Notes under the pieces: generated by a model | What the model was told of the DNA's origin: nothing | The model's database searches: none | The model's input: only the letters and a program-made list of their open reading frames with translations | Made by a program: the position numbers and the translations under genes | From: Phorcus lineatus | Lineage: Eukaryota > Mollusca > Gastropoda > Trochida > Trochidae | Length of the DNA: 64,000 bases | NCBI GenBank assembly: GCA_921293015.1 | Contig: OV121086.1 | Coordinates: 25,034,254-25,098,253 of the forward strand | Reading direction: 5' to 3' | Shown: piece by piece, positions 11,436 to 63,424 of the stretch | How positions within the stretch are numbered: position 1 is the first letter of the stretch | Layout: each line of letters begins with the position of its first letter

Positions 11436-11788
11436 AGTGGTACTACAGTACATATGTCTGACTGAAATAGAAAACTTTACGTCGCCTTCGCCATACTGGC
11501 ATATCGGCAGACGAGTCCACTTCGGACTACTTGGGGACGCGGAGTTGACCACGGGGATGGGTGTCCCTCCTTGGGACGCGTGAGGAAGGGAGTCCCACTT
11601 TGGGACGCATGGGGAAGTGTTTTGGGTATCTTTTTAGGTGTGTCTTTCTGTTTTCCTAACTGTGGGCTGATCATTTAGGTGACGTACCCCTTAAAGTAGG
11701 CTAATCACTTGGGAGGCTTTTTCTGTCCCCGGATTCGGTTCTCATAAACGGTCCCTTCCAAGACCAGGCGGCACTTGATATCATTTCT

Positions 11789-14700
11789 TCATATATACTG
11801 ATGTATATCACTTTCTAGGAGGAAGTTGGCTAAGGGCTTATACACTCGTGACTCTTGAGAGTGTGACAGCAGTAGCTTCGCTGTAAGTGTATTTTCACCA
11901 ACTTCTTCCCTGAGTGTTTGCCTTGCTGCGCCGAACAGCTGGCAATCAAGCAATAAGTGGGAGACAGATGCTTGTGTGGCACAATTTCGACAGTCTTTAT
12001 AGGAGGTTTTAGTAGCACCGAGTCTTAGTCTGGTAATCATTCTGTCTACTTGTCTGTTGCGAATAATGCACTTGGGCCTATTCACACTGGGACATAGACT
12101 ATGATACCAACGTCCGCTCGGGCCGTTATCCCACCTAGATTGCCATTTTTTCAAGATAGAACTTCTTATCATACTCTTTACCTCGCTGGAGGAATAAGGG
12201 TAGTCCAAGATGTGTTCTAACTCTAGTGCCTCACGTGCTAGTCTATCTGCCCTTTCATTGCCTGGAATGTCCACGTGAGAAGGAATCCAGCACAGTTCAA
12301 TCTCTTTGCCAAATGATCTTTCGAGCTTTCGAATTTGCTCTAGGATCTGTCGGAGTGTGTCTGGTCTACTGCGAGAGTATTTAGAGGCCAGTGACTGCAG
12401 TGAACTCAGGGAGTCGGTAAAGACGGCTACCCTTTTGTCCCTGAGACCTTCAGCTAATCTCAGTGCATGGTGTATAGCTTCCAGCTCGGCAGTGTAAACA
12501 GACTGTCCATTTGGTAGGCGGTTTGAGATCTTTGTTTTATCGGATGTATACTGTGAGCTGATTTGGATGCCATAGGCTGTTCTGTTTCTCACAGGATCTT
12601 TCGATCCATCAGTATATATGTGTGCCGCCGACTCATAGTGACTGTCTATCCTGCTGAGCGCAATGCTCCTTAGCAACATTGGATTTTCACTCTTAGGCCC
12701 TTCAAGAGTGAGGGAAGTGTCGATATTTGGGGTGCTGAGTTTCCAGGGTGGCACCGTCCCGGCTTTGAGGGGTTTTGGGGGGGCAACAGTATCACACTTG
12801 TGCTCCTCTTTGAGCAATTGGACCCGTATCCCACTTGGCATGATGCTGGGATAGTGCTTAGCAAGTGCGATGTCTCGTTTACTGTTGTTATTCCTGTCCC
12901 AAATCCTCGTCACCAAGGGATTTGTGCTTCTACTCCAGAAGTTCAGCAATAACTGTTCTCTCCTGAGATCGAGTGGGAGCTCCCCAGTTTCCACTAATAG
13001 TGAATTGTGGGTTGTGCCAGGCCCTGCTCCTGTCACTATTTTAAGAGCTTGGTATTGCACCGACTCAAGTCGCTTTAGAGTGGTCGTGGCAGCACTGTGG
13101 TAGGCTTCACACCCATATTCTAACTTGCTTCTAATTAGAGATCTGTAGAGAGATAGGAGTGTTTGTCTGTCCGCTCCCCATGAACAGCCTCTAACAGCTT
13201 TCATGACATTAAGGTCGCTTTTGCACTTTGTGACTAGGTTATCAATATGACCTGACCAGGTCAGATATTGATCAAAAGTGACCCCGAGAAATTTCGCCTT
13301 ATTCTCAAACGCAACTCTCTTCCCTTTTATTTGAAGCCTGGGTGTGCCGTCTACCCGGCTGCCCCTTCTTTTGAAAAGTACTCCGATCGTTTTTTCAGGA
13401 GAGATAGTGAAACCCCATCTATCACACCATATTTCGACACCGTTCAGGGCTTCCTGCAGCAATGTTCTAATTTTGGAGAGCTCCCGGTGTCTGACCCAAA
13501 CAGCCCCATCATCTGCATACTTAGAGGTGCTGGTATGTTTCTGATGGTAAACATGTTCAAAGAGGTCGTCTATCATTATATTAAAGAGTGTGGGACTGAT
13601 AATGCTTCCTTGTGGAGTGCCATTATCCAACCTGTGTCGCTCGGACAGGTGGTCACCTATTAAAACAGATAGTGATCTATTCTCTAGGAAACTTTGAACA
13701 TAATTTGTCATTCGCCCTTTTATACCAACACGCTCAAGTTTGACGAGGAGTCCGTCATGCCACACCATGTCGAATGCTTTGCTGAAATCTATGAAAACAG
13801 CCGCCAGATATTCCCTCTTTAACTGGGCGGTTTTAATATCATTTTCCAGACGGAGAATATGGTCAAGACAAGAGCGTTGCGGTCTAAACCCGCTCTGGTC
13901 ATGAGACAAGTGTCCATTGGTCTCTAAGTGGTGCCGTAGACGAGCAGTAACCATTGCTTCCATCGCCTTGCATAAATTTGAGGTAAGGGAGATTGGGCGA
14001 TAAGAGTTGGCCGAGGCCGCCTCTTTACCCGGTTTGAGTAGGGGTATGACTGAGGCGTGTTTCCATGCCTCAGGTACCTCTCCTCGTTCCCATACCAAGT
14101 TATACAATTTGATTATAAGCCGAATAAAACTGTCAGGCAGCCGCTTGAGCATCTCATAACTGACCATATCTTCGTCTGGCGCCGTGCCTTTTCTATGGAA
14201 TATGGCATCCTTGAACTCCTCAACAGTGAAGCTGCAGTTATAGGATAAGCTACACTCAGGGGGTTGTTTGGGTGTTCTGACTATTTTCTCTGTGCCCTTG
14301 AATTCTTCAGAGAAATTGTTGTTGCTACTGACAGATGCGAAATGCGTGGCTAAGATACTTGCTTTGTCTTTGATCGACGTGACGCCGGTCAGTTTAGGGA
14401 CGATCTGTTGCTTATTTTTCCTTTTAATTGCATGTATCTTTCGCCAGACAGTCCTAGAGTCAGTTTTGTCATTGAGCTCGGCGCAGAATTTTTGCCAGGA
14501 GTTTTTCTTTGATGTGTCAATCAAAGATTTAACTTTGGCTCTAGCCAGACGTACTTCTCCAATAGCAGACCGGTCACGTTTACTCCTATTCAATGCCTTT
14601 TTCCTAAGGCGGCGCGCGTTAGCTATTTCCTCATTCCACCAGGGTACAGGTCGCCCGCCGACCTCTGGTTTCTTGCGTGGAATTGAAGCATTGGATGCGG

Positions 14701-15524
14701 TTATAAGCGCCGTCGTTAGGTTAGAGCAATAGGTGTTTATATTATCAGACTCTATATCAGTCGGTTCGATCTTTTTGCATTCCGATCTGAAAATCGACCA
14801 GTCTGCCCGTGAGAAGTTCCACTTATCTCTACTTGTACATTCTTGATCAGAAAGTGGTGGGGTACCTAGGTAAGTGAAACACGGGCTGTGATCACTTCCC
14901 CAAGAGTCATCATGAACCTGCCATATGCAATCACCGGCTAGGTTACTGGTGGCAAACGCCAGGTCTAGAGCAGACCATGTGCCGTTTTGTGGGCAATGTC
15001 TAGTCGGAGAGCCATCGTTCAGTATAACGAGTCCTTCTGACTCTACCCAATCTTCCACCATGCGGCCGAAGCCGTCAGGGCGGGTGGTTCTTTCATCCCA
15101 CAGTCTGCTGTGCGAATTGAAATCGCCGAAGATTAGGCCTGAACTACCCACCAAGTCACTGAGTTTTTTAAGTTCAGCAATTGTGGTGGGGGTAGCAACT
15201 CTATGATAGACATTTGCGATGCGGATTGTTTTGCCGTTTGCCATACTGACCGAGATGACTTGGGTTTTTAGGTTCCCCACATCAGCTTCTATTTCTGCGG
15301 TGGTGCATTTGTGTTCAACAAATGTAGCCAGTCCACCTCCTGCAGTAAGTATCTTTTCTGATAAGATTGTAACCAGGTATCTGAAATTTCGATCTTTTGC
15401 TGAATTTGGTTTCTTGGACCATTATTATGTGTGGTTTCAGTACCTGTTGTCTGACTAGTGCGACTAATTCGTGCCCGTGAGCTCCTAGGCCATTAGCGTT
15501 CCATTGCAAAATTTGTAAGTCCAT
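11789..15524 (-). pseudogene. LINE ORF2: endonuclease, RT, RNase H (one frameshift)
   Basis: It starts at the ATG at 15524 (MDLQILQWNANGLGAHG, QETKF), 37 nt after the ORF1 stop. A frameshift near 15345-15350 (just after LIRKDT) separates the first ~60 residues from the remaining 1163-codon frame. Motifs in order: endonuclease GDFNSHSRLWDE and SDHSPCF; RT SYRPISLTSN, FIDFSKAFDMVWH, GTPQGSIISPTLFN and YADDGAVW; RNase H YTDGSKD, TAELEAIHHAL, FTDSLSSLQ and HVDIPGNERAD; a C-terminal Cys/His knuckle (CRNC...HLLLDC). RNase H after RT plus a CCHC ORF1 places it in the I group (I/Nimb/Ingi-like). Many small plus-strand ORFs here are shadows. Confidence 0.9.
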
Positions 15525-15563
15525 GATGACAGTTTGACTTATTGTTCGACAGCAAATAATTAT

Positions 15564-17459
15564 TTACTTAAGTCTGAGTTTCTTTATCAGTTTTTTAACT
15601 GAGTAAGGGTAAGATAGCGCAGCAGCGACAGCCTGTACTAATTGCACAGTCTGTGCCCCCGACTCATCTTTCTCTGGCAGTAGTTTGAGTAGGACTGCAC
15701 AGAGATTAACAGTCAACTCGGGTTTCAATGTTTGACTGTCCCCCAGAAGGTCGACACTGTCATTAACAGCACGCTTTTGACCTTCCCTATTTTGATTGTT
15801 GGGTTTACCCTTGCCCTGGGGTTTACCCGCGTTGCCTTTGCTAGTAGGCACGCTGGTACAGTTCGCCTTTGTACCTTTGTTTGAGTAATTCTCTGCCCGT
15901 TGAGATTCACTCAATTTGTTGGTGTTTTTCGCCTTAACACCCCCGTTAGAACCGCACATTGCCCTGTGTGCTTTGTTCTCTGTCTTTTTAGTGCTGGTCG
16001 CCTTAGCACTAGGGTTTGGTTTACATACTTTCGTGTGTTTGCCATTCCCTTGTTTGGCGCGCGCGTTGCCCGACGCGTTTGCCTGTGCTTCTCCAGTCGG
16101 GGCTTTACCCATAGCTTTGTGTTTCTTGTCTTTCTGAACGTCCTTGTTGAGCGCCCTCTTCTTGCTCTGTAGAGCCCCGCATCTACTGGACAGAGACGAG
16201 TGTCCTCGCCTCCTGCAGTTGATGCAGAACTCAGAGCAGTCACCAGGGCACTCAGACATGGGCATTGCGCAGGTTCTGCACTTGGCTTGCGCTGTACAAG
16301 CCAACTTCACATGGCCGAACCTCAGACAATTGACACATTGCCTTGGGCGCCGGAGATAAGGGAGTGTATCAAGTTCCCTGTCTCCGAACTTTATTTTAGG
16401 GGCCGTGTTCCCCGTGCACGTGAGCACCACGACTCTCGTGTTATTTCCCCGACTAGTGATGCGGTAGTGGTCTGTCACCATGAAATTTTGTTTTAGGTTG
16501 GTCACTATCTCGTAATCGGAGATACCAGGATCCAAGTGAATAACACACCTGGTCTGGTCGACCCACCTGGGCACAATCCAAGTGACAGACTCGTTCAAGA
16601 TTTCGGAGGGGAGTGCCTTAGAGTGCTCAATCCTGCCACCTTGCACAAGATAGCCTCTATTTACCCTCCTAACCGTGGTAATTGAGACAGTTTTGGACAA
16701 CTCATCCCTAAGGGCCTGGGCCGTGACCCTGTTGGTAAGGGTTCGGTTATAGTCCATGGAGTTGACCAATCGTTCCCAAACCCTCCCTTCGGGTTGATTG
16801 ACCTTGGTTTTCACCTTGGTCGATGTCTTTTTTGCTGTCTCTTTCCCGTTCTTAAAACGCCAGCGGCCAGAACAGAATTCCCTATCAGACTGACTGAAGT
16901 TAAACCCTTTGCTTCTAGACACTAGTGCCTCCTTATAGGAGAATGGCCGTGTCGGTCGAGAAGAACTCTCAGAGAGTTTTCTCTTTTTAGAAGCTCTAGA
17001 TAGAACCTCTGTGAAGTCCGAGTCGGGTTGAGGAGTGGTCAGTTCCTCAATAGAGCTGGTCAGACTCTCTTGTGAGCTGGGCGGGCTCTTATTGTCCCCA
17101 TGAGAAGTTGGCTGTTTCTCTGAGGGGACAAATATCGGTTCTCCTAGGAATACGAACTCGCATTCCATTTCGCTATCAGTTGTGGGCTCAACTGTAGCTT
17201 CAGGGTTCAAGTCCTGAGAGATGGGCTGTCTCTCAGTCTCAGTTACCTGGGTAACTGAGTCCTGACTAGGGGTCGGGCATACCTCAATGTCGGGAACTCG
17301 AACGCCTGCCGTGAGCTTGGCAGGTTTAATATAACCTGTCTTTTGTGTGACTATCTCAGGGTTGGTCGTACCCTGTGAGCCGGTCGCCTTGGCTCCCTTT
17401 AAATAATTTACTTTGGGGTTATTATTACTCCCCTTAAGTATCTGGCTAACGTCACACAA
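15564..17459 (-). CDS. LINE ORF1: Gag-like nucleic-acid-binding protein
   Basis: About 630 residues in one frame. The N-terminal third is Ser/Thr/Glu-rich and probably disordered; a middle domain contains WIVPRWVDQTRCVIHLDPG. Three CCHC-type zinc knuckles follow (CVNCLRFGHVKLAC, CRTCAMPMSECPGDC, CINCRRRGHSSLSSRC), then a Lys/Asn/Gly-rich basic tail. This is the expected chaperone-like ORF1 of I-group LINEs. The frame is open upstream to a stop at 17529-17531 with no ATG. Initiation would need a non-AUG codon, or the ATG was lost; the TTG at 17459 is only a nominal start. Confidence 0.8.
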   Translation of the reverse strand: MCDVSQILKGSNNNPKVNYLKGAKATGSQGTTNPEIVTQKTGYIKPAKLTAGVRVPDIEVCPTPSQDSVTQVTETERQPISQDLNPEATVEPTTDSEMECEFVFLGEPIFVPSEKQPTSHGDNKSPPSSQESLTSSIEELTTPQPDSDFTEVLSRASKKRKLSESSSRPTRPFSYKEALVSRSKGFNFSQSDREFCSGRWRFKNGKETAKKTSTKVKTKVNQPEGRVWERLVNSMDYNRTLTNRVTAQALRDELSKTVSITTVRRVNRGYLVQGGRIEHSKALPSEILNESVTWIVPRWVDQTRCVIHLDPGISDYEIVTNLKQNFMVTDHYRITSRGNNTRVVVLTCTGNTAPKIKFGDRELDTLPYLRRPRQCVNCLRFGHVKLACTAQAKCRTCAMPMSECPGDCSEFCINCRRRGHSSLSSRCGALQSKKRALNKDVQKDKKHKAMGKAPTGEAQANASGNARAKQGNGKHTKVCKPNPSAKATSTKKTENKAHRAMCGSNGGVKAKNTNKLSESQRAENYSNKGTKANCTSVPTSKGNAGKPQGKGKPNNQNREGQKRAVNDSVDLLGDSQTLKPELTVNLCAVLLKLLPEKDESGAQTVQLVQAVAAALSYPYSVKKLIKKLRLK

Positions 17460-17489
17460 TGATTTTCTATTTATTACATTATTGACATT

Positions 17490-17522
17490 GGATGCGGGGG
17501 GGTGGGCGCCGCGCCACCCCCG
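17490..17522. repeat. GC-rich hairpin in the LINE 5' leader
   Basis: GGGGTGGGCGCCGCGCCACCCC folds on itself around GGCGCC. It lies immediately before ORF1 on the minus strand and is strikingly GC-rich for this window. Confidence 0.6.
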
Positions 17523-17639
17523 GATACTTTATTATGGACCTGTGCAGAGGTCGCGAGGGTTTTAATCCTCATGACTGACATACTTACGCACTGCACTGTC
17601 TGTGTCGTCCCGTATCCGTCTGTGTCCTCTCCGTGTAGA

Positions 17640-22799: not shown

Positions 22800-24525
22800 C
22801 GGTAGCACACAAGAGGGGGGCGTATCAAAAGCCATTCAAATTGAAAAACTTGATTCTTTTCAAAAACAACTTGTCACATCTCTTGAAGTATAATCTTGGC
22901 TCTGATAATGAAAGGTGCAAGAAGGCCAAGTGGATCAAAGAATCTGGCAACTGTTTTCAAAAAGTTCCTTTTTGTCAGATCCAAAGAACTATTCTGGAAG
23001 GAGTGAGAAAACTGAAACTGATCAGCCTCTGCATTCCAGATCAAACCAAGAGCCTTTGTCATAGGAAGATCAGACGATTGAATCTGTACTTCCTTCAGTC
23101 TGTCTTTTACAGGAATTTCATTGAGAACTTGGAAAGAGTTGGATATCCATTTTCTTGGGTGCATTCCTGCTGCTGTCCATAGACTTTTTAGTTGATCATA
23201 GAGCTGAATGGCTACGCCGTCACTGACAGCGCTATCCATACTATCATCCATGTAAGTTGATTTTGCGACAACTTCAGCAGCCAATGGATAAACTTATGCA
23301 TTCTTTCTAGCATGTTCCTGTGATACAAATTGTGCCAAGAAAGGAGAACAATTGAGACCAAATACTACACGAGAGAACTCATACACAGTAGGTTCACATT
23401 TTGAATCGAGTGATCTCCAAAGAAATCTCAAGCAAGTTCTATCCTTTTGCAAAACCTCAATTTGCAGATACATTTCTGCTTTGTGACAAATGACACCCAC
23501 TCAAGACCTACGAAATCTAATCAGTATTTCAAAAAGATTGTTCTGTAATTTTGGACCAGGGTGGATGAAATCATTCAAAGACACACCTTTGCATTTGGCC
23601 GATGCATCAAATACAATCCGGATTTTTGTTGTTTCCCTGTCCATTTTGATGACAGGAAAGTGTGGAAGATACCACTTTGTATTTTGTCTGTCATCTTTGT
23701 CAACTTTCTGGATGTATCCTTTCTGGAGGTACTGCTCTAAAAACAGCATCATAAGCTTTGGAAAGTGACTCATCTTGATTCTTTGGAGAGTTTCTTCTCT
23801 ACATTCTCAAGACATTTCAAAGCCACTAAGTAATTGTCCAGAAGACCACAAGGGTCTTGTTTCCTTGGAATGCCTACCGTGTACCTTGCATTTGAGTAGC
23901 TAATTGATTCCCTAACAGCTTCCATTGCCAATTGATCTTGAGCAGACATAGATGGTTCATTTGATGGAAAGCTTTCAATTTCCCAGAACTTCTGGAGAAT
24001 GTGATCCACTTCACTGAAAGGAGGACTTTTTGCTTCACTTGCCTTGTGTCATCCTTACAAGACCTATGAGATGTACCAGAAGAACTGAATGTGTTCCTAA
24101 GCAACAATTCGGCCTTTTCAACTGCCTCTTCGGCAACTGCTTCAAGCAAATCTATTTCTTGACTGGTTCTCTTAGCAAGCTCTAAGTTATCAGTCTCTTG
24201 ATAGAGAATTTGCAAAGATATCATCACATCAACTGCGTCTATTTGAAGGGAGCTGACTTCATCATTCAAACACCTAATTTGCCTACGATCAGGCAACTCC
24301 TCTTCCAGCAGTGAAGATAACCTATTTCTGCATTTTGTAAAAGCCGTTTTGCAAGTGGTTTTCCTACGCTTTCACTGAACAATATCCTGATTATCTGTGA
24401 AAACAGATACTTTGAGTTCCGTTTGGGACATACTTCTGTCAATGTATGTGTTGAAGGTTTAACATTTCTCTTGTAAGCTAACCTGCAAATGTGAGTACAG
24501 CGTGGTGTGCATGACAATATGATAA
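22800..24525 (-). pseudogene. BEL/Pao retrotransposon pol fragment
   Basis: Read downward on the minus strand through several frames. A Gag/linker region (RTSQEIDLLEAVAEEAVEKA, 24296-24100) comes first. The N-terminal RT region follows (TVGIPRKQDPCGLL; KWYLPHFPVIKMD; KIRIVFDASAKCKGVSLNDF), then the RT core ([20 protein letters not shown]) and the catalytic block YMDDSMDSAVS at about 23245. Last comes the post-RT region DPLGLLAPFIIRAKIILQEM, where homology stops at 22874. YMDD plus the LGLIW and FFDPLGLLAPF blocks are diagnostic of Pao-type pol. RNase H, integrase and the 3' LTR are absent. At least three frameshifts. Confidence 0.8.
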
Positions 24526-28984: not shown

Positions 28985-30068
28985 AGCACAGCTCACATAC
29001 CCCCGCTTCAAATTATAGTCTGGGTTTCTTTGTTGGTCTAACCCTCAAAAAGCTCACTTAGGGATCATGGTTGATAAATGTATGAAGTTTGGTGAAGCTA
29101 GCATTTATAGTTTAGGAGATATGCTCTGGACAAAGGACTTGGTCTTAGATGCACTGTTTTAGTCATGTTTCTATGGAAACAGCAAAAAAATAAAAATCAT
29201 TTGTTGGTCTAACCCTCAAAAGGCACATCAAGGGATCATGGTTGATAAGTATATGAAGTTTGGTGAAGCTAGCTTGTATAGATTAGGAGATAGGCTCCGG
29301 ACAAAGGACTTGGTCATAGAGTCGCTGTTTTAGTCATGTTTCCATAGAAACCGCAAAAAATAAAAATCTTCTGGTGGTCTAACCCTCAAAAGGCACATCT
29401 AGGGATCATGGTTGATAAGTGTATGAAGTTTGGTGAAGCTAGCATGTATAGTTTAGGAGATATGCTCCGGACAAAGGACTTGGTCATAGAGTCGCTGTTT
29501 TAGTCATGTTTCCATGGAAACAGCAAAAAAATAAAAATCATTTGTTGGTCTAACCCTCAAAAGGCACATCAAGAGATCATGGTTGATAAGTGTATGAAGT
29601 CTGGTGAAGCTAGCATGTATAGTTTAGGAGATATGCTCCGGACAAAGGACTTGGTCATAGAGTCGCTGTTTTAGTCATGTTTCCATGGAAACCGCAAAAA
29701 ATAAAAATATTTTGGTGGTCTAACCCTCAAAAGGCACATCTAGGGATCATGGTTGAGAAGTGTATGAATTTTTGTGAAGCTAGCATTTATAGTTTAGGAG
29801 ATATGCTCCGGACAAAGGACTTGGTCATAGAGTCGCTGTTTTAGTCATGTTTCCATGGAAACCGCAAAAAATAAAAATCTTTTGTTGGTCTAACCCTCAA
29901 AAGGCACATCTAGGGATCATGGTTGATAAGTGTATGAAGTTTGGTGAAGCTAGCATGTATAGTTTAGGAGATATGCTCCGGACAAAGATTTGTGACGGAC
30001 GGACAGACGGACGGACGGACAGAACGAACGCTATATACCCCTGCTTACGCTGTAAGGCGGGGGTATAA
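28985..30068. repeat. CCCCCGC-capped tandem array, six ~170-bp units
   Basis: A left cap ATACCCCCGCTTC is followed by units marked by GGGATCATGGTTGATAA at about 29061, 29232, 29402, 29573, 29743 and 29913 (170-171 bp apart). Each contains GGTGAAGCTAGCATGTATAG and ATGCTCCGGACAAAG. The right end has the GGACGGACAGACGGACGGAC tract and the cap AAGGCGGGGGTATA. The caps are inverted, so the array is the core of a mobile-element-like unit. Confidence 0.8.
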
Positions 30069-32002: not shown

Positions 32003-32580
32003 GGTGAAGGTTTGGCCTAGGCTATTTTCTCCCCCGGGAAAGTTTAGACTAGGCCAAAGTTTCCCTCCCGGGCTCATTATCTTCCCTTTGGGAAAGTCTG
32101 GCCTAGGCCAAAATTTCCCCACCCTTGCTTCTACCTTCACCTACTTTGTATTGTCCACATTCATAGCAATTTGAACTAAGCTAAGCTTACACTTACAAAT
32201 CCTGGTCTTTTATCGATAATGGGGAGATATTAACTTATTTTGGAAACTCTCTGGTCTATCTAGGATACTATTAAAAAACTTGCTTATTTTTGTTAATTCT
32301 TTTTACAGGGGGGTATTTATTTACAGGGGGACATTCTGGCCAAGCTTGGCTATTTCTTCTCCACCCTTGGTATCTATTTACAGTGGGGGAAAATTCTGGC
32401 CTAGCTAGGCTTTTTTTCCCACCCTTGCTACTCATTTACTGGGGGAGAATTATGGCCTAGTTATCCAGCTTTGGTATCTATTTACAGTGGGGGAAATCCG
32501 GGCCTAGCTAGGCTATTTCTTACCTACCCATGGTATTTATTTAAAGTTGGAAAATTCTTCATGCAACATTGTTGGATAGC
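32003..32580. mobile_element. Half copy of the GGCCTAGCTAGGC foldback element
   Basis: Starts GGTGAAGGTTTGGCCTAGGCTATTTTC, runs through the same unique spacer as 51185-51340 (CATAGCAATTTGAAC...ACAAATCCTG) and ends in about four units with CTGGCCTAGCTAGGCT. There is no inverted second arm. It lies in the TXNL4B intron. Confidence 0.75.
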
Positions 32581-32599: not shown

Positions 32600-33720
32600 T
32601 ATGGCTGACTGTACAAGACAGACAGTCAGGCATAACAAGTTTAAATTCTGCAAAATGGCCTGTGGAATAAGCATATTGATAATGTTATTACCAAAGTGAG
32701 TGCTAAAACTAAAAATATCGTCTCAAAATCTTTTATTATTGTGATTATGTTTGGAACAGGTTATTCATCATTATCTGATAAACGTACTTAAATACTTAAC
32801 AGAATTAATTCCCTTAAATCTATCCTCTGCATCCACATGTGAATCTAGATCGTGCAACATTTTTCCGAGCCACTTTTCCGCAGATGTTAATGTGTGCGGG
32901 ATTGTAACTTGTTGGATGACAATGTAAGAAATATTAATTTTCATAAATTGTTAAAGAAACACGTTGATCAAACCCAACCTGCAATGTGCATGATATTATT
33001 AAGAATACAGGCACAAGAGCCAATCAAATTATTCATTGTAAATTTAGACTCAGGTGTAGTGACCTTAACCCTCAAGTTACTGAATATTACTTTGACCAGT
33101 TTTGCCCCCCTGGCTGAATTTTCAAGCACTTGCCTCTCTACTGTTAATGCGTAATTAGCACCAGTGGCTGAATTTTCCAGTGCCGCGAGTCGTGACCATT
33201 TTAAATATAAATGTCGTTGTATACAAACCTAGTCGACAAATACCATATTACAAATGGATGATATTTACCTGGAACTTTGAATGAAATTAATATCACCTCT
33301 AGAACTGTATCTATAACCAAAGTAAACTTTTACAAAAATATGTCTAGAATGAATTTTACGATTATTAAAGAATTGTCTATATTTCCAACTTTATAAAATC
33401 ATTTAATCACTGAGTGCACACAGACAAATTATATACAGAAATGAAGCTAACTTATTGCTCTATATTTTACGATAAATTTCGAAAAATACACTCACACATT
33501 TAATAGAATTTGTCTTTATTTCCAATTTTATAAATCAAGTTATTCGCTTTGTATACACGCAACTTATATATTGAATTGAAGGCAATTTATTCCTCTTTAC
33601 AAAGAAATAAAATATAACAATCTTTTGCACTGTAATTAGAAGTTATTGCCAACCAACCAACCATCTTGTGATATAAAAGTTTTCAAAATATGTTGACCAC
33701 ATCATGAGAAAATTGGTTTT
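32600..33720. other. TXNL4B intron, no feature seen
   Basis: AT-rich. A chance 86-codon ORF at 32894 has no support. Confidence 0.35.
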
Positions 33721-33721
33721 A

Positions 33722-34841
33722 CGGCACAAGTTTCAATTATCACAAAGAATGTACTGGTGACTTCGGTCGAAATGGTCACTGTAGCATAAGTGATCCTTGT
33801 CTAATTCCTGGGTCAACAATAGTCTTTTTTGTGACAGCCAGTTTTACGTATGTTGACCAAATAGTACAGTACGAAAAAATTGAGGCGCGCAGTGTAATTA
33901 AGTTTTTACATTTGAAGGTCTATACTGCACGTCAAATTCATGATGAGATGAAATCTGTTTATGACAATGACAGCCCATCCTATGACACTGTTGTGAGATG
34001 GAAAAGGAATTTCCTAACAGGTCACATGTCCCTCGCAGATGAGCCAAGCAGTGGACGCCCCTCACTTACTGATGATATGGATGTCATTAAGAAGGTTAAG
34101 ACGCTGGTTCAAGAAGATCGTGGCATAACTCTACAAATGATAATGCATGAAACAGGTCTGAGTTATGGCAGTGCATGGAACATACTCCATAACCAGTTGC
34201 ATATGTCCAAAGTGTCAGCACGCTGGGTTCCTCGCTTACTGACTCCATTGCAAAAACAGAATCGAAGGGACATGTCACTGCAGGCATTGGAGCTTCTGGA
34301 ACAAGACGAAAAGGATTTCTTCAAACGTCTTGTTACCATGGATGAATGCTGGGTCTAACAATATGATCCTGAGACAAAAGAGATGAGCAAAGAGTGGAAG
34401 CATACGTCACCACCTCCCAAAAAGGCCAAGGTGCAAAAGTCTGCAGGAAAGGTCATGGTGTCTGTTTTTTGGGATTGTCTTGGAGTCATCTTCACGGATT
34501 ATCTAGTTAAGGGGCAGACCATTACTGGAGCTTATTACTGCAACCTGCTGAGCAATTAAGGGGTGCCATTTAACAGAAGCGCCGCGGTATGATCACCAAA
34601 ATTATAAGCCTGTTAGCTGACAATACCCCAGCTCACACTTGTCAAGAATTTGCTGTGGAGGAACGGCGCATCCCCCCTTTTCACCTGATCTTGCACCAAG
34701 TGACTTCTTCTTGTTTCTTCGAGATGAAAAATCCACTTCGTGGAGGTCGTTTTGAGGACACCAAAGTCTTAAAAACATGAGAACAAAATAAAATTTGTAC
34801 CTTTGATGTGTGTCTGTGATAATTGAAACTTGGAAAGACGG
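33722..34841 (+). mobile_element. Mariner element with inverted ends
   Basis: CAAGTTTCAATTATCACA at 33727-33744 is exactly inverted at 34815-34832. Both ends are followed outward by a few imperfect bases and TA (33720-33721 and 34842-34843). The size (~1.1 kb) is slightly short of a typical mariner. Confidence 0.75.
33831..34785 (+). pseudogene. Mariner transposase, inactivated
   Basis: The N-terminal paired HTH region (EARSVIKFLHLKVYTARQIH, DEPSSGRPSLTDD) is intact. The first catalytic block MDECWV is followed at once by TAA (34356-34358). Reading continues beyond it: YDPETKEMSKEWKHTSPPPK, GKVMVSVFWD, ITGAYYCNLL. After frame changes near 34555 the second Asp lies in LLADNTPAH and the third in APSDFFLF. 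Spacing fits DD34D mariners. At least one stop and three shifts, so no active product. Confidence 0.85.
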
Positions 34842-41592: not shown

Positions 41593-42169
41593 AGTCATAG
41601 TCTCATTTTTGTAAGGCAACTAAACTGAACTAATTATTCTTCACGAACAAAATCTGATCACTAACACAAATATTTCCTGTCGCATTTGCAAAGATCTTCA
41701 TTTTTATGCCCGTTTTACAGTTTTGGATGAATCAGCTTATTGTCGTGGGCCGTTTCAGACCGATGAGGTACCGAATTAAGTGCAATCCCATCGTGAGTAC
41801 GAAACACCGGAAATCTAGTCATCGCAGCGCCGATACTTATGACAGACGCATTCTTCACTGACTTTACCACCTTTTTTTCATTTCTGTATTTGAAAAAGCG
41901 TAAGCTATTAGCTATTTTATTGGATATTCAGCTGGGAAATTTTATGTGTTCTTCGTCATGGCCTTAGCGAAATGACGTGGTAAGGACTAACGCTCGCAAA
42001 AAACATAATATTCGGGTAGGGTAGGGTAGTTTGAACTTCATTATTGAGGGCTAGAATGCCTGCAGAGTTCTAAAAATTGTTGCAAACGTCAGGGGAAAGA
42101 TTTCTTTGAGTAGTGAACTATTTGTCCGGCATTTATTACAATTTGCCTTGCAAAAATGAGACTATGACT
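41593..42169. mobile_element. TTAA-target non-autonomous DNA transposon, full copy
   Basis: TTAA at both edges (41589-41592 and 42170-42173). 27-bp terminal inverted repeats start AGTCATAGTCTCATTTTTG(T/C)A. 577 bp, no ORF. A second, left-truncated copy is at 60908-61287. The TTAA target fits piggyBac-like or Kolobok-like families; which one cannot be told. Confidence 0.8.
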
Positions 42170-42173
42170 TTAA

Positions 42174-49082: not shown

Positions 49083-51017
49083 TATGCGTTAATACTTAAT
49101 AAAGGTTATATTTTTTTGGGAATAAGGATGCCGGTGCATCCCTCAATAAAATGTCCAATAAGTGAGCATAGTTCATGTAAGAAATACTTCCGGGATCTCA
49201 CGCGTTAGCGCAATCTTATAACTATGACAACATGGCGCAGGGTCGTGACTTTGTAAAACATTCCGTAGGAAAGTGCACACAGCATCGTATTTAATCAGGG
49301 TCTTGCGCTTGCAAAAATAGAAATATCCAGACAATGAATTAAACAATAGATTCCTTTAAGGTTTGAGTTGTTTGGATAACGTTTAGTAGGTAAAACCGAC
49401 AGTTAAACTGTGAGATTTACTATCGGCTAGTGTTGTTTTACATAACGAGCGAATGATGATATGCCAACTAGCACGTCACGAAAGATTCACGCTTCAGTGA
49501 CCACGGGGCCTTTCAGGTTCTGCTCGCCGGTCGTAATTGGGCAATTAAATTACAAAGCCGTAATTATGTTGTTTAGCGGCCGATTTCAGAAATTTAAAGT
49601 TGAGTCCACGTCAAATTGTAATCCCATTTAACGAATTCCGAAATCGACCATAAGGCATTTCACCCAATCTTTAAGATGACTGTATATGATAAATGCTATT
49701 CTTTTGATATCATCATCATTATTGGTTATTTGTGCAAGTATTGAAAGTTGCAAACACACATACATGGACACCTTTTGGCCTCACAGGATGTTATGTTTAT
49801 TCCAGGTGAGAACTTATAAACCAATGTTTGAAAGATTTTTAAAGCCTGATTGATAATTCTGCTGCTTTTTTATACAGGCAGACAGAACTAGTTTACTTCA
49901 GTGTCACAAATGAAACTAGTACATCAATAAAACATGATATAGTATTACTTGAGTTTGTTTAACAACCACCCATTGTTTAAGATATGAGACATTATTAAAA
50001 ACAATAAAACATATATACTTTATACAAGGGAATGAATAGAGGTAATGAAAATTAGAAACTGTTTACAAGAAACAAGTTTAATCATATAACATTTTAAAAA
50101 CATTGCTGTTACTAGTTTTGTGCTTAAGTGTTTGCTCGTTTATTCTTTAAGGTGTTCACTGAACTAGAGAATACACAAAGCTAGCAAGATGAAGATTGAC
50201 TTAAACATATTTATTCATGTTTTTATATATATACATGAATGGATTGGCCAACAAGCTCCGAAGAGCTTATATCAAGGCCGCTCCAAGATGAAGATTCACA
50301 GGGGGATTAAGAGACAGTGTCTTCACAGTAAGTACATTGAATTGTTACATAAACAAACAGATTGATAAGTGACTTCTGATCAGTTGATTTACTGATTGGA
50401 GCCACATATCAATTTATTTGTTAATTGCTTGATCTAATTGATTTCTATGTTAGGTATAAGAGTACAGTTATCCAATTTGTGATTGCCATCTGAGATCTTT
50501 TTACACTGTTTGGTGTCTTTCTGTTTGTAACAAGCATTATATTCTGTTTCAGAATGAAGACCAGTCAACTAGTCATCAGATGTCAACACAGTGAAAAGGA
50601 TTTTTAAAATTTTTTTTAGGATTGTTTATTTACTTTTTTAATGAAAAAATAATTATATGCATTCCTAAATAATCACATATGTACATAATTTTCATACGAA
50701 TATAATTTTGTTAATAATATTTTAGCATTGTTACAAGTTTTCAACTAAAATAAGTGATTTCTTGTAATTAAATTGCTGTGATGAATATTCCAATAGTCTA
50801 TCTCGTAATTGTTCACTTATCGGTGATTTTATTCTTGATAAATTTGTGTGTATAGTCTTACAATTAAATCTATAAATATTGTCCATGAAATTTCCACCAA
50901 GAAAGCTTTTGATTTTATATTCTATTAAAACGTTTTAATGATTGTGTGATTCTTTTGTCATTGTTTGAAGGCATGCTGGGGTATCGGTAAAAGCATAGCC
51001 AGAATCATAATTCATGA
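49083..51017. other. Flank of the candidate exon and AT-rich intergenic sequence
   Basis: 49130-49640 is CpG-richer than most of the window (e.g. TCACGCGTTAGCGC), consistent with an unmethylated promoter but unproven. The remainder is AT-rich with no feature seen. Confidence 0.3.
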
Positions 51018-51043
51018 CGGTGTAGCAGGCCATTTCTTCCCCA

Positions 51044-51137
51044 GTCTAAACTTTCCCCGGGGAGAAAATAGCCTAGGCCAAACTTTCCCCGGGGAAGGTT
51101 TGGCCTAGGCTATTTTCTCCCCGGGGAAAGTTTAGAC
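51044..51137. repeat. 94-bp near-perfect palindrome
   Basis: Centred on CCCC|GGGG at 51090/51091. Arms of 47 bp begin GTCTAAACTTTCCCCGGGGA and match with a single mispair. It contains GCCTAGGC on each side. Confidence 0.9.
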
Positions 51138-51359
51138 TAGGCCAAACTTTCCCCCCCTGGGCTCTATCTTCCCTGGGGAAAGTCTGGCCTAGGCCAAATT
51201 TTCCTCACCCTTGATTCTACCTATACCTATTTTCTATTGTCAAAATTCATGGCAATTTGAACCCCACTTAACTTACAATTACAAATCCTGTTCTTGTATC
51301 TATAATGTGTAGACATTAAGTTATATTGACAACTTCTCTGCCTTTCTCGTTTAACTAGT

Positions 51360-52545
51360 TTAACTTTCTATTCGGGGAAAATCTGGCCTAGCTAGGCTAT
51401 TTCTTCCCCACCCTTGTTATTTATTTTCAGGGCCTCGTTTCACAAAGCCTTACGGTCATCGTCCTTAAGGTAACCTTAGTGCAATGTTAAAGCATGGGAG
51501 TTAAGGTTAACCTTAGTTAAGGTTGCTTTGTGAAAGGAGGCCCAGGGAGTAAATTCTGGCCTAGGTAGGCTATTTTTTCCCCACCCTCAGTCTTCATATA
51601 TAAGGAGGGAGAGTCTGGCCTAGCTAGGCTTTTTCTTCCTCACCCTTGTTATTTATCTTCAGGGGGGAAGTTCTGGCCTAGCTGGGCTATTTCTTCCCCA
51701 CCCTTGTTATTTATTTTCAGGGGGGGAAGTTCTGGCCTAGCTAGGCTATTTCTTCCCCACCCTCAGTCTTTATTCGTAGCAGGGAGAATCTGGCCAAGCT
51801 AGGCTATTTCTTCCCCACTCTTGTTATTCATTTTCAGAGGGGAAGTTCTGGCCTAGCTAGGCTATTTCTTCACCACTCTTGTTATTCATTTTCAGGGGGG
51901 GAAGTTCTGGCCTAGCTAGGCTATTTCTTCCCCACCCTCAGTCTTTATTCGTAGCAGGGAGAATCTGGCCAAGCTAGGCTATTTCTTCCCCACTCTTGTT
52001 ATTCATTTTCAGGGGGGAAGTTCTGGCCTAGCTAGGCTATTTCTTCACCACTCTTGTTATTCATTTTCAGGGGGGGAAGTTCTGGCCTAGCTAGGCTATT
52101 TCTTCCCCACTCTTGTTATTCATTTTCGGGGGGAAAGTCTGGCCAAGCTAGGCTATTTCTTCCCCACCCTCAGTCTTTATTCGTAGCAGGGAGAATCTGG
52201 CCAAGCTAGGCTATTTCTTCCCCACTCTTGTTATTCATTTTCAGGGGGGAAGTTCTGGCCTAGCTAGGCTATTTCTTCACCACTCTTGTTATTCATTTTC
52301 AGGGGGGGAAGTTCTGGCCTAGCTAGGCTATTTCTTCCCCACTCTTGTTATTCATTTTCGGGGGGAAAGTCTGGCCAAGCTAGGCTATTTCTTCCCCACT
52401 CTTGTTAGTTATTTTCAGGGGGGAAGTTCTGGCCTAGCTAGGCTATATCTTCCCCACCCTCAATCTTTATTCATAGGAGGGAGAATCTGGCAAAGCTAGG
52501 CTATTTCTTCCCCACCCTCAGTCTTTATTTATAGGAGGTAGAGCG
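51360..52545 (+). repeat. 57-bp minisatellite, left arm of the foldback
   Basis: About 19 units of GGGGGAAGTTCTGGCCTAGC-TAGGCTATTTCTTCCCCAC-TCTTGTTATTCATTTTCA. Each carries the 12-bp palindrome GCCTAGCTAGGC or the variant GCCAAGCTAGGC. A higher-order pattern of three units (~180 bp, marked by TCTTTATTCGTAGCAGGGAG) repeats from about 51770, 51945 and 52168. Confidence 0.9.
51430..51543. mobile_element. Small palindromic MITE inside the left arm
   Basis: GGGCCTCGTTTCACAAAGC ... GCTTTGTGAAAGGAGGCCC, 114 bp, with internal AAGGTTAACCTTAG palindromes. It interrupts one array unit. Confidence 0.7.
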
Positions 52546-52589
52546 AATGTCTTCCACTGTGAACAAGGAGGAACATTAAAAGTTGGGAA

Positions 52590-53375
52590 TGGTATAGCCC
52601 AGCTAGGCCAGAGTCGCCCCACTCTAAATGAATACCAAGAGTGGGGAAGAAATAGCCCAGGTAGGCCAGTTTCCAACTCTACATAAATACCAAGGGTGGG
52701 GAAGAAATAGTCCAGCTAGGCCAGAGTCACCCCACTCTAAAGAAATGCCAAGGGTGGGGAAGAAATAGCCCAGTTAGGCCAGAGTCGCCCAACTTTAAAT
52801 AAATACCAAGGGTGGGGAAGAAATAGCCCAGCTAGGCCAGAGTCGCCCCACTCTAAATGAAAACCAAGAGTGGGGAAGAAATAGCCCAGATAGGCCAGTT
52901 TCCAACTCTACATAAATACCAAGGGTGGGGAAGAAATAGTCCAGCTAGGCCAGAGTCACCCCACTCTAAATAAATGCCAAGGGTGGGGAAGAAATAGCCC
53001 AGTTAGGCCAGAGTCGCCCCACTTTAAATAAATACCAAGGGTGGGGAAGAAATAGCCCAGTTAGTCCAGAGTTGCCCCACTCTAAATAAATGCCAAGGGT
53101 GGGGAAGAAATAGCCCAGTTAGGCCAGAGTCGCCCAACTTTAAATAAATACCAAGGGTGGGGAAGAAATAGCCCAGTTAGGCCAGAGTCGCCCCACTCTA
53201 AATAAATACCAAGGGTGGGGAAGAAATAGCCCAGTTAGGCCAGAGTCGCCCAACTTTAAATAAATACCAAGGGTGGGGAAGAAATAGCCCAGCTAGGCCA
53301 GAGTTTCCCCACTCTAAATAAATACCAAGGTTGGGGAAGAAATAGCCTAGCTTAACCAGAATTTCCCCCTTTAGA
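52590..53375 (-). repeat. 57-bp minisatellite, right (inverted) arm
   Basis: About 14 units of AATACCAAGGGTGGGGAAGA-AATAGCCCAG(C/T)TAGGCC-AGAGTCGCCCCACTCTAAAT, the reverse complement of the left-arm family but mostly with the variant CCCAGCTAGG in place of the perfect palindrome. Minus ORF 53198-53425 is a translation of it. Confidence 0.9.
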
Positions 53376-53859
53376 TAAACACTCACCTGTATATAGTTCT
53401 CACAATATAGAATGAAAACAAGCAATTTTGTGAAAGTCGGCTAGTTAGACCAGAATGTTATCAGTTGAAAATATGGATGAAAGGCAAAAAAGTTGACAAT
53501 ATAAGTGAATACACTATAGATAAAAGAAGAAAGGATTTGTAAGTATTAGTTAGGGTCCAAATTGCTATGAGTGGAGCAATAGAAAAAGCTGTAGGTAAAA
53601 TCAAGGGTGGGGAAGGTTTGGCCTAGGCTAGAGTTTCCCCGGGGAAGATTGAGCCCAGGGGGGGAAAGTCTGGCCTAGGCCAAACCTTCCCCGGGGAAAG
53701 ATTGTCCTAGGCCAAACCTTCCCCGGGGAAAGTCTGGCCAGGGGGAAAGTTTGGCCTGTTACAACGGGATGCATGTGCATACCTGTTGGAGGCATTGGTG
53801 GGTGTCAACATTAATGACACTAGGGAGTATACACATAAATCTAGCGAGAATGCAAACAT

Positions 53860-54240
53860 CCCGTCCTGAAGGTTGTATCAGCATACACGTTAGAAGCAGT
53901 GGCTGCTGTAAACTTTTACGACCTTCAGGATGCATCCACATAGTCTCTAGAGGCACTGGTTGCTGTAAACTTTTACGACATAATTACACCTTCAGGATGC
54001 ATCCACATAGTCTCTAGAGGCACTGGTTGCTGTAAACTTTTACGACATAATTACACCTTTAGGATGCATTCACATAGTCTCTAGAGGCACTGGTTGCTGT
54101 AAACTTTTACGACATAATTACACCTTCAGGATGCATCCACATAGTCTCTAGAGGCACTGGTTGCTATAAACTTTTACGACTACAATAACTTTTTGAAGAT
54201 GCATCCACACTGTCGCTACAGGCCTGTACATTTAACGACT
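53860..54240. repeat. 67-bp tandem array next to the foldback
   Basis: Four to five units with AGGATGCATCCACATAGTC, TCTAGAGGCACTGGTTGCTG and AAACTTTTACGACATAATTA. The first unit (from ~53860) and the last are diverged; central ones nearly identical. Confidence 0.85.
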
Positions 54241-54259
54241 TTATTACCCTTTGGTGAAG

Positions 54260-56370
54260 GTGAAAAAGTACTTGCCGATGCACAATGGTAAAATTTTGCT
54301 TGCAGAGACACTGTGAATACGTTTTGAGAGGGGAATTTTTTTTATAGGGGAAATGCTATTGTTTTTGTGTGTGATGTTTACTTTAAGTTCAAACAAAAGT
54401 ATGCTTACTGAATTAGACTGGGAAAAAATATTTTTGCAGCCTTTCAATACAACATTGGCAAATAAATTGCGATGGTTTCAATTTAGAATTGTATCGTATC
54501 AATTAATTCTTTCCTGTTAAATATTAAAATTGCTGAAAACTTACGTACATTTTGATGTTGAAAGCATAAATGATATATTTTGGGACTGTCTCCATGCACA
54601 ATTTTTTTGGCAATGTTTTTTAAGAAATGTCCACATATTCATAACATGAACTTTGACTTACAGTTTATTGTTTGGGTTGAGAAAGAATTTATTTACTGAT
54701 TATGTTTTTGATTTGCTGTTGCTGTTATCAAAACTTTCATATATAAATGTAAGGTTTTAAAAACTTCTCTAAGTTTGAATCATTTCAGACACTGGATGTT
54801 GTATCATGTTGTCATAAGTTTAAAGTATCTTTCTTTAATGTTTGCTTCTTGTGTCCATCATGTGATAATTATATGTTCTCAAATATGTCAAAACCACCAA
54901 GTGTTACTATAACATGTTCATGAATTAACATAACTATAGTCATTTGAAATGTTTGACCTTGACCTTTTAAGTTTTAGTATATGCACTGAAGAGATACGAG
55001 TGTGAATGGGCGAGTGATTGTGTAAAAAATGTGCAAAAAATCAGAAATCTCAAATACTCCATACATTTATTTCCATTGGGCTTCTGCTATCCTGGGTAAA
55101 TAATTTGAAAAAAAATATCTGAAGAGGGTTAACACCAAAGTTACCAGTTTTTAGTTTTCATGTAAGAAAATGTTACTCTTAAATGTCAGCCTCCTTGGTC
55201 CTGGAGAAGAAGTTGTAAGATTTTCGGGGAAAATGTCTGCCATGACCATATTTGAGAGTGGGGTCAGTCTACAAAATCGGATCACCTAATCTCCACAAAA
55301 TTTCAGGTTTAGGGGTTAGGGGAGGAGAAGGAAAAAATGTTAATAATTTCCGCCAAAGAACAAGGGATGACAGACAACAGGCCAAGCCATACCTCATCTT
55401 ACTTTTCAGGTCTTGCAGAGAAAATATCTAATTTTTGTATATACAAAAGTTTAGTCATAAAAACATTGTAATTATCTCATTTTTAAAGGGTTGTAGAAGG
55501 TGACTTGCAACAAGGTTGTTGATTGGCTATTTAGAACAACTGTGTTGTTTGTGAGAGATCGTTCTTTGAGTTAATCATACAAATTTGTAATAGATGTAAA
55601 AGTGTCACTACCTATAAATTGTATACTTCTTCAGAAGAAATCAAAGGTCCAACATCATCACATGGCACATCCACATCACATCATAAATGTCCTATTATTC
55701 CACATGTAAGTTTTCAATCCAATATCCAATGAGTGGACTCTATATATAGTGGACATATAATATCTTTTTTTTTATGATATACATTTCCAGCGTTTTTCTT
55801 TTTTTTAATTATATTTCCCTTTTTAGGGTTGCAAAGTTTTCATTCAGGCTACTCTCCAAACCGTATCTCTGCCCCTGTCTACTCCATCACTGTTTCCCCC
55901 TAAACCCCCTTTATGTAGAAAGATATTTTCCAAATCGTTAGTCATAACACATCAGCATATTTTTCTGACCTCCTTGAGCTTTAATTATAATAGCTCGAGT
56001 TCTTGGAAAAACTATACTTTATTATAAATCACATTGGGGTAAAGCAAACTTGATTTCTCACATGTACAATAGTTTTGAACTAATATAGGCAGGTGTCCAG
56101 CTGAAAACCAAAAATGAAAAAATCCTAGCGTGATCAGTTGTCACCATCTTATGATGACTGTAAAATAGCTTGCGGTCATCAGCCCGTACACAGTGGTCTA
56201 TAGACCAAATAATAATCATACTAATTTTGATTTAAATCTTTGTGATAAAATCAGTAACTTTGAAAATTAATCTTTTGCTATGGTTAGAGATTGAAATTTG
56301 GTCTTCAATTCCTCTTTAGATTTGAGAAATTGAACAAATTTCGTGAATGTCACATTAATTTTTTTCTAGC
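54260..56370. other. AT-rich region, no feature seen
   Basis: No coding signal or clear repeat. Confidence 0.35.
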
Positions 56371-60907: not shown

Positions 60908-61287
60908 AATCCCATCGCGAGTGCGAAACACCGGAAATCTAGTCATCGCAGCACCGATACTTATGACACTCTTTCTTCATTGAGTTTACCACCTTTTTGT
61001 TATTTCTGTATTTGAAAAAGTGTAAGCTATTAGCTATTTTCATCGGATATTCAGCTGGGAAATCTTATGTGTTCTTCGTCACAGCCTTAGCAAAATGACG
61101 TGGTAAGGACTAACGCTCGCCAAAGACATAATATTAGGGTAGGGTAGTTTGAACTTCATTTTTGAGGGCTAGAATGCCTGCAGAGTTCTGAAAATTGTTG
61201 CAAACGTCAGGGGAATGATTTTTGTGAGTGGTGAACTATTTGTCCGGCATGCATTATAATTTGCCTTGCAAAAATGAGACTATGACT
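60908..61287. mobile_element. TTAA element, left-truncated second copy
   Basis: Closely matches 41783-42169, with the same right end followed by TTAA (61288-61291). The left ~190 bp and left inverted repeat are missing; the junction follows a T-rich tract ending TTTTCAGG. Confidence 0.8.
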
Positions 61288-61339
61288 TTAATTTTTGGAT
61301 TTGGTTCTTATTTTTGTAGTAAATTCGCGAGTTTCACAT

Positions 61340-61425: not shown

Positions 61426-62230
61426 AATTAACTATAATATCAAGATGAATGTACAGAATATAATCATCGCAAAGTCAATGTTTTAAGCATGACATAAGCC
61501 TAAAAATAGAGCCATGGGCTCTGTAGCTCATCAGACTTTTGATAGAAATAGGTGTTTGGGTTTAGACCATGGGGTCACGGGCAGTGTAGGAAAGATAGCC
61601 TGTCCCAACGTCCGAGACGGGTAACTTTGGTTGAGGACAGGCTGTAAAATTATTTAGTCCATCCTTGTGTCGGGCCAATTTTGTCTAACCATAAATGCAT
61701 TTATATCTAATAACAGCTGAACAGAACATGTGCTCCGTGGTCATGACCAATCATATACGTGGAATACGATCACGTGATCTTCTGTCGTAACCAGTGATTT
61801 TGTTGACAAAACGAACTCGTAGACAGATTCTTGAGATGTTTTAATGACATAATATATTGACGAGGGTCGTTTATATTTTAACTTCATTGTTGATATGTAG
61901 GGGAGACTGGGGCACCTTGGGACCATATATAATACACATATATATATATATATGAACACAAGAAAAATGATACTTTGGATATTTATTTGGATAAATTAAA
62001 GCAGCCTTTATTATGAAGAAAAGAGAAAGTGAAACAAAACAATATGTCAACATTTCTTTTTGGTAAAAAACCAGAGATATCAAAATAAAAAAAATGCTTT
62101 CCAAACCAGGGGTAACTTGGGCTTGAAGTAGGGCACATTGGGACATTGCAAATTGTTATGTTGAGGAAAGAAAACAACAATGTATTTCTTAAAAGTTATT
62201 CACAATCAAATAAAAAAAACCCATTGCCCA
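61426..62230. other. No gene; (TA)n microsatellite
   Basis: A short (AT)n run lies at about 61936-61953. GGGGCACCTTGGGAC and GGGCACATTGGGAC phrases flank it (61907-61925 and 62132-62146). Confidence 0.4.
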
Positions 62231-63424
62231 TTTGGGGTCAAGGGGTCACCGAACCTACAATTCAGAATCCCCATTGTCCAAGGAGTCTACACACAACTAT
62301 TAAGGTATCAAGACCTTTTGGAACTGGAGAAGATGAAAGTAGGATTTTAAGGTTTTGACCCCTGTGACCCCATTTGGGGTCATGGGGTCACCAAACCTAC
62401 AATTTAGAATCTCCGTTGGCCAAGGAGTCTACACACACCTTTTCAGCTCTCTAGACCTTTTGGAACTAGGGAAATAGATGAAATTAGGTTTTTTAGGTTT
62501 TGACCCCTGTGACCCCATTTGGGGTCATGGGGTCACCAAACCTACAATTTAGAATCCCCGTTGGCCAAGGAGTCTACACACACCTTTTCAGCTCTCTAGA
62601 CCTTTTGGAACTAGGGAAAAAGATGAAATTAGGTTTTTTGGGGTCATGGGGTCACCAAACCTACAATTTAGAATCTCCGTTGGCCAAGGAGTCTACACAC
62701 ACCTTTTCAGCTCTCTAGACCTTTTGGAACTGGAGAAGAAGATGAAAATGGGTTTTTCAGGTTTTGACCCCTGTGACCCCATTTGGGGTCATGGGGTCAC
62801 CAAACCTACAATTTAGAATCCCCGTTGGCCAAGGAGTCTACACACACCTTTTCAGCTCTCTAGACCTTTTGGAACTGGAGAAGAAGATGAAAATGGCTTT
62901 TTCAGGTTTTGACCCCTGTGACCCCATTTGGGGTCATGGGGTCACCAAACCTACAATTTAGAATCTCCAGTGCCCAAGGAGTCTACACACAACTATTCAG
63001 CTCTCTGGACCTTTTGGAACTGGAAAAGAAGATGAAAATAGGTTTTTCATGTTTTGACCCCTCTGACCTCATTTGGGGTCATGGGGTCACAAAATCTACA
63101 ATTTAGAATCCCCATTGGCCAAGAAGTCTACACACAACTTTTCAGCTCTCTGGACCTTTTGGAACTGGAGAAGAAGATTAAAATAGATTTTTAAGGTTTT
63201 GACCCTTGTGACCCCATTTGGGGTCATGGTGTCACGAAATCTACAATTTAGAATCCCCATTTGCCAAGGAGTATGCACATAAAATTTCAGCTCTCTAGAG
63301 TCATTGGTTCTGGAGATGAAGTCGAAAAAGTGAAAAGTTAACGGATGGACGAACGGATGGACGGATGCCGGACGCCATGCCATGCCATAAGCCCATCGGG
63401 TCTTTCAGACCTGATGAGCTAAAA
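62231..63424. repeat. 145-bp tandem array ending in a TTTTAGCTC-family cap
   Basis: Eight units, marked by TTTGGGGTCA at 62231, 62373, 62518, 62637, 62782, 62927, 63072 and 63217. Spacing is 142-145 bp with one shortened unit (~119). Each has GGGGTCACCAAACCTACAAT, GGCCAAGGAGTCTACACAC and GACCTTTTGGAACTGGAG. The array ends in GGATGGACGAACGGATGGAC and CATCGGGTCTTTCAGACCTG-ATGAGCTAAAAA. ORFs inside are repeat translations. Confidence 0.85.

Follow-up and report, generated by a model that had tools for sequence, protein, structure and literature searches.

A foldback element with minisatellite arms in Phorcus lineatus is probably a non-autonomous Ginger1 transposon

Background

The stretch of the Phorcus lineatus genome analyzed here (64,000 nucleotides of contig OV121086.1, called the window below) contains two minisatellite arrays that face each other within a structure of about 2.7 kb. 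The locus raises the question of whether this is a mobile element with defined ends and, if so, which type of enzyme would move it. The initial annotation had taken it for a foldback element whose mobility, if any, would depend on another element. That reading is supported here and can be specified further: with a probability of about 0.94, the structure is a foldback-armed, non-autonomous DNA transposon belonging to the Ginger1 superfamily, as judged from its sequence and its relatives set against published descriptions of Ginger1 rather than Ginger1 sequences. The assignment is made because the ends, the target duplication and the dispersed copies agree with it, and because a relative with the same tips carries integrase domains and OTU sequence.

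The passages on Ginger1 in Bao, Kapitonov and Jurka 2010 (PMC2836005) give TGTNR ends and, as targets, CCGG in 75% and CCGT/ACGG in 24% of the cases; they also state that TGTNR ends fit Gypsy as well as Ginger1. The Ginger1-OTU elements described there share with our family the TGTNR ends, the 4-bp CCGG or CCGT/ACGG duplication, the H2C2 and DDE integrase followed by OTU (found here in the same-tip relative) and the existence of non-autonomous copies with identical ends. They differ in having terminal inverted repeats of about 40-270 bp, in place of the kilobase minisatellite arms and two distinct ends reported below.

Structure of the window copy

All boundary pairs combining 51000-51044 with 53740-53789 were compared, and the best terminal inverted repeat (9/10) together with a direct repeat was found at 51021/53763, the runner-up having a repeat of 7/10 with a 3 bp direct repeat. 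The element was trimmed to 51021-53763 and reads TGTAGCAGGCC...GGCCTGTTACA, with TGTAGCAGGCC at 51021 and TGTAACAGGCC at 53763, and is flanked by the 4-bp duplication ACGG at 51017..51020 and 53764..53767 on the forward strand. The left tip, TGTAGCAGGCCATT, is of TGTNR type (51021..51034, forward strand) and the right tip reads inward as TGTAACAGGCCAAA (53750..53763, reverse strand); both were set by the boundaries and by the tips of the relatives. The TGTNR 5' and YNACA 3' ends of Ginger1 are present as TGTAG/TGTAA in the window element and its relatives. The 14-bp ends proposed at first were 3 bp too long on each side, as their leading CGG/CGT is part of the ACGG duplication. This element is the sole pair with the Ginger1 signature in the 64 kb, and none occurred in 40 or in 150 Markov windows. 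When any 4-bp repeat was permitted, 6 pairs were found in the window versus 115 in 40 Markov windows; the significance thus rests on the specific target, not on the bare structure.

The two opposed arrays were borne out by TRF at 51543-52515 and 52594-53352, with a period of 58 rather than the 57 bp first given. From left to right the element consists of a left terminal domain with an A/T-rich spacer (51021..51384, forward strand, by alignment), a left array of 18 anchored units of about 58 bp (51395..52556, forward strand), a truncated centre (52499..52642, forward strand, by comparison with the centres of other copies), a right array of 13 full units of about 58 bp, which differs from the left array (52594..53352, reverse strand), and, on the right, a spacer and terminal domain that hold 32-bp tandem modules (53370..53763, reverse strand, by TRF and alignment); both arrays were delimited by TRF and anchored units. 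The first 98 bp of the centre match the start of a core of about 710 bp known from other copies, and the remaining core is absent. As had been stated, there is no ORF of note, the longest from an ATG being 46 aa. Long inverted arms with tandem units around a centre with little or no coding sequence are the anatomy of the foldback class.

The arms had been described as an inverted repeat; rather than mirroring each other they are two sequences about 80% alike, the outer arms being identical in 283/333 ungapped columns (85%) with 108 gap columns. Units within the window copy have a likeness of 0.823 in the left array, 0.910 in the right array and 0.769 between left and right. The self-complementary 12-mer GCCTAGCTAGGC, which had been placed in the basic unit as a whole, belongs to the left arm: it occurs exactly 10 times in the left array of the window and 0 times in the right one, and across the 34 bounded copies 280/282 occurrences are in left-oriented units and 2 in right ones. 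The element had also been called palindromic at three scales. At the left end this holds, with a near-perfect palindrome of 102 bp rather than 94 bp (51040..51141, no strand, by palindrome scan and folding), having 2 mismatched pairs of 51, while the longest palindrome per 64-kb Markov window was 24-30 bp under the same rule in 10 windows; its 98-nt form folds at -55 kcal/mol versus a shuffle mean of -14.5 kcal/mol. At the scale of the unit it fails, since single units, one per arm, folded no better than shuffles (z 0.85 and -0.12).

A nested palindromic MITE of 112 bp (51431-51542) with a CAG duplication was found in the left array by palindrome scan (51428..51545, no strand). It begins GGCCTCGTTTCACAAAGC, the neighbouring array units act as its empty sites, and its CAG duplication fits the CWG target of NuwaI (PHIS). 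Sequence comparison gave a second, truncated member of the family in the window, a left-arm piece without a tip (32003..32558, forward strand) which begins at the dyad of the end palindrome; the arms could not be rooted by comparing left arm, right arm and this second copy with one another (188, 185 and 172 of 227).

An immobile satellite array that became inverted, or an artefact of assembly, would account for the single bounded copy and the one truncated piece seen in the window, and repeats of this kind are hard to assemble. We consider this explanation the least probable of all those weighed here, and in particular an inversion made by the assembly very unlikely, given that the arms differ by about 15-20% and the arrays by more, that the MITE lies in one arm only, and that many insertions with duplications are present elsewhere in the genome.

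A 67-bp tandem array occupies 53764-54223 directly to the right of the element, and a diverged unit starts only bases away from the junction. The array unit is matched by the right flank 53764-53830 (0/1000 shuffles as good), and this array was considered as the empty site of the window copy and dropped, 1114/5000 random left flanks being equally good when joined. Rfam at gathering scores gave no match in 50500-54300. The rest of the window holds two LINE-type elements (5373-8598 and 11789-17528) with endonuclease and reverse transcriptase, one of them with RNase H, a FLYWCH ORF (10962-11633), a Pao peptidase piece (22874-23293), a weak Mos1-type HTH below cutoff (33708-34358), tandem arrays of 170-bp units (29029-29987) and 145-bp units (62227-63328), and a dispersed repeat pair in direct orientation, 91% identical (41784-42173 and 60908-61291).

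Copies across the genome

The search covered the species' own genome (957.8 Mb in 74 contigs, the window lying on C11), in which 40 of 2006 first-look candidates were scored, and the counts from it are lower bounds. From the matches listed, 38 relative loci were chosen by hand and fetched, and their tips were searched with either tip allowed at either end. Tip pairs were found in 35/38 loci, with an exact 4-bp duplication in 26/35 (24 CCGG and 2 CCGT). The other bounded copies for which the initial annotation had suggested a genome search do therefore exist, and they carry target duplications. Of the 9/35 pairs without an exact duplication, two are false internal ones (L024 and L032), three have a one-base difference (L010, L012 and L030), one is shifted by one base (L029), and in three (L023, L034 and L038) the flanking 4 bp do not match. 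L038 showed no simple empty site. Its right end is duplicated, with two right tips in tandem at a distance of 244 bp, and ACGG flanks the outer tip.

Genome-wide, 107 left and 95 right tips joined exactly to CCGG were counted, while reversed-pattern controls gave 0 and 5. Pairing was done inward and within 15 kb on 195 tips (100 of the 107 left places, as listed, and the 95 right ones) and gave 53 left/right pairs of 94 bp to 11.3 kb and 0 pairs of the same type; 89/195 tips remained unpaired, and 7 left tips lay outside this set. These 53 pairs have CCGG by construction and are no independent test of the duplication, which is provided by the tip search in the 38 loci. A palindromic target, TACCGGTA, is suggested by the bases next to the duplication in 46 copies where it is exact; 19 of these had been selected for CCGG. 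Right tips are clustered: 42/92 (of the 95, those on contigs of known size) have another within 1 Mb, compared with a mean of 17 and a maximum of 32 in 1000 simulated runs.

Empty sites had also been proposed as a check, and one paralogous site was found, for L029: a repeat next to L041 aligns with the joined flanks of L029 across the junction and has CTGG in place of the CCGG of L029. For the window copy itself no pre-insertion site was found, the left flank being unlike the 67-bp array on its right. L027 was considered as an insertion into a piggyBac-like repeat and was found merely to adjoin one. Pattern scans of viral contigs and a first scan of genome contigs gave no match; the lone match of the second genome-contig scan, a 22-mer in an archaeal MAG (L001), was taken as chance.

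The coding relative and competing assignments

One relative among the long tip pairs has ORFs with integrase domains. It covers C13:14332646-14343973 (11,328 bp, L048 and L049), has both tips with CCGG on both sides, and its arms hold 38 forward and 36 reverse anchors. In the ORFs of L049 the domains Integrase_H2C2 (6.6e-15) and rve (2.3e-13) pass the cutoff, with SH3_Tf2-1 (4e-5) falling below it, and WIGPYLV, of the GPY/F type, is visible by eye in the translation. The Gypsy-like integrase that characterizes autonomous Ginger1 is therefore found in L049, the window copy being without one. After the integrase an OTU match scores 23.0 bits in L049, just below the cutoff of 23.3, and 27.0 bits in L053, above it; the latter, 91% identical to the 11.3-kb element over 1.3 kb, supplies the C-terminal OTU or Ulp1 domain expected of Ginger1. 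In the 11.3-kb element the integrase and the OTU sequence occupy different frames, and the element may be split by introns or broken. An ORF at L048:2889-3410 resembles, by eye only and with no Pfam match, the region with the YPYY motif that precedes the zinc finger in Ginger1. The 3' parts of the coding region are kept in L053, L057, L050, L018 and L052, the last only beyond the OTU. The domain-bearing relative is the candidate for the other element on which the mobility of the window copy would depend.

The ends alone also fit a Gypsy LTR retrotransposon, and a Gypsy remnant or solo LTR with identical TGTNR ends has to be weighed. The ends are inverted and not direct repeats, the two tips differ, and all 53/53 pairs join a left with a right tip; further, the centre of the 11.3-kb relative showed no pair of direct repeats resembling LTRs, no reverse transcriptase was matched in the 4/13 listed central ORFs that were scanned, and OTU sequence follows the integrase. 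We regard a Gypsy origin as highly improbable. An integrase in L055 was tried as a partner and set aside, since direct repeats of about 160 bp enclose it, with AACGC on either side (by eye), and it belongs to a nested Gypsy. This nested Gypsy (L055:1543-3480) is internally shortened and has an integrase ORF of 474 aa. An array of units of about 149 bp lies inside the 11.3-kb element (C13 local 4424-5559), and related units occur in L055:711-1539.

Mutator/P-type transposases are not known to be related to integrases. The anatomy of the element, with its long arms, tandem units and a unit related to the terminal domain, is like that of Tetris and Tm1, and a foldback element of the Mutator or P superfamily, as with other described foldback transposons, is the other assignment to compare. 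The passages on Tetris and Galileo of Drosophila (PMC4079207) describe arms built of variable tandem units, themselves akin to the terminal domain, and Tetris copies found without a transposase, like the window copy. Tetris differs in its duplications of 8-10 bp; a Mutator affiliation is suggested for it, and Galileo is placed in the P superfamily. Tm1, a Mutator/Foldback element of root-knot nematodes, is likewise described (PMC3169594) with composite terminal inverted repeats, variable tandem units and differing end motifs, and differs in its 9-bp duplications, Mutator-type transposase and units of about 14 bp. Against these stand the 4 bp CCGG/ACGG duplications and TGT ends of our family, in place of 8-10 bp, and the integrase between the arms of the coding relative; the ORFs that were scanned gave no match to a MULE or P transposase domain. 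A Mutator or P assignment is accordingly given as little credence as a Gypsy one, and Ginger1 is retained. Its ends, its target and the enzyme of its relative make the element a Ginger1, and its anatomy makes it a foldback element comparable to Tetris or Tm1.

Arms, cores and miniatures of the family

Under stricter tip matching, 34/39 sequences (the 38 loci and the window copy) have one left and one right end, at lengths of 1396-4373 bp. In the outer 330 bp of these 34 copies the likeness between copies is 0.942 for left ends and 0.945 for right ends, while left and right ends within a copy are 0.803 alike; terminal inverted repeats are thus present, in arms that exceed the published Ginger1 range. 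The ends are more alike between copies than within a copy, so that the foldback state is old and homogenisation has acted largely on each arm by itself. Full units per copy number 1-37 in the forward and 0-27 in the reverse array and are uncorrelated (r = -0.12). None of the 275 reverse units is of left type (0/275). Among the forward units, 69/354 score nearer the right-type unit, which makes the left array a mixture and leaves the arms incompletely separated in unit type.

The left palindrome is at least 96 bp long in 22/34 copies, on which ground the idea that it arose recently in the window copy was rejected. L012, L013, L029, L030, L035, L039 and L043 keep the tip and have one deletion each, of 15-111 bp, that lies inside the palindrome or reaches across it, and the palindrome is altered in more complex ways in L020, L023 and L027. 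The 710-bp core has no long ORF and is present, wholly or nearly so, in 10/21 centres compared; most of it is lost, in like manner, in the window copy and L011. Aligned with the part of the 11.3-kb element next to its right array, the core shows 84% identity over 612 columns, and the short copies therefore look like internal deletions of an element of this kind. The centre of L021 (C15:29501185-29505557) holds a nested element of about 2.4 kb with CCCTT...AAGGG ends at TTAA, piggyBac-like by eye, and its sibling L017 has the intact TTAA site.

Three miniatures of 94-109 bp carry both tips and CCGG. Two of them share, by eye, a junction at a CCTAGGCCAAAC repeat, and those with this common junction could be recurrent deletions. 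The miniatures suggest that about 40-55 bp per end are enough for insertion, unless they shrank after they had been inserted.

Proposed mechanism and value of the findings

In the proposed mechanism a Ginger1 integrase-transposase would pair one left with one right tip, excise the element and join it to staggered 4-bp cuts around CCGG. The arrays would lengthen and shorten by unequal exchange or slippage inside each arm, and deletions between arm repeats would yield the short forms. The window copy may have lost its coding centre first and then most of the core, and full arms would not be required for insertion.

What the arms do admits two readings. We lean, by a small degree, towards a transposon with a retroviral-type integrase which evolved its kilobase foldback arms independently, with obligately different ends and arms that are largely separate minisatellite lineages; ends of about 40-55 bp would be sufficient, and the arms would represent parasitic growth or a buffer against silencing or recombination. 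The arrays might otherwise be working parts, as suggested for the arms of Galileo, their units being binding sites for the transposase or a host factor, or silencing seeds, that boost mobility in trans. Consistent with such a role, about 22 bp of the unit consensus are almost unchanged in both arms and the second copy (the first 15 served as the anchor), and in 6/6 comparisons none of 500 shuffles came as close to the terminal domains as the array units did. The wide and uncorrelated variation of unit number between arms argues against it, as do the miniatures, which bear duplications without arrays, though possibly through deletions after insertion. On this balance working arrays seem rather unlikely.

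Helentrons are rolling-circle elements and are not known to have target duplications or inverted arms. The tandem-repeat-carrying Helentrons of oysters resemble the present family in that short satellite-like arrays are spread by a non-autonomous element (PMC7492417). The table of the oyster satellitome gives CgiSat41 (1736) as DNA/Ginger1, and in PMC6431247 the passage on Ginger1 and the passage on foldback elements are unrelated to each other. No foldback Ginger1 is named in the titles or opening abstract lines of the papers listed on Ginger elements and foldback or tandem-repeat arms.

The foldback transposons in the literature compared here are, in the passages used, assigned to Mutator/P-type transposases. 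A Ginger1 case with a coding relative in one genome would mean that foldback arms arise around a retrovirus-like integrase too. The analysis also annotates a repeat that could have ended up among unknown or satellite sequences, and a family whose ends, target and enzyme type are known may serve as a system for studying what makes arms grow and how dispersed minisatellites are seeded by transposons.
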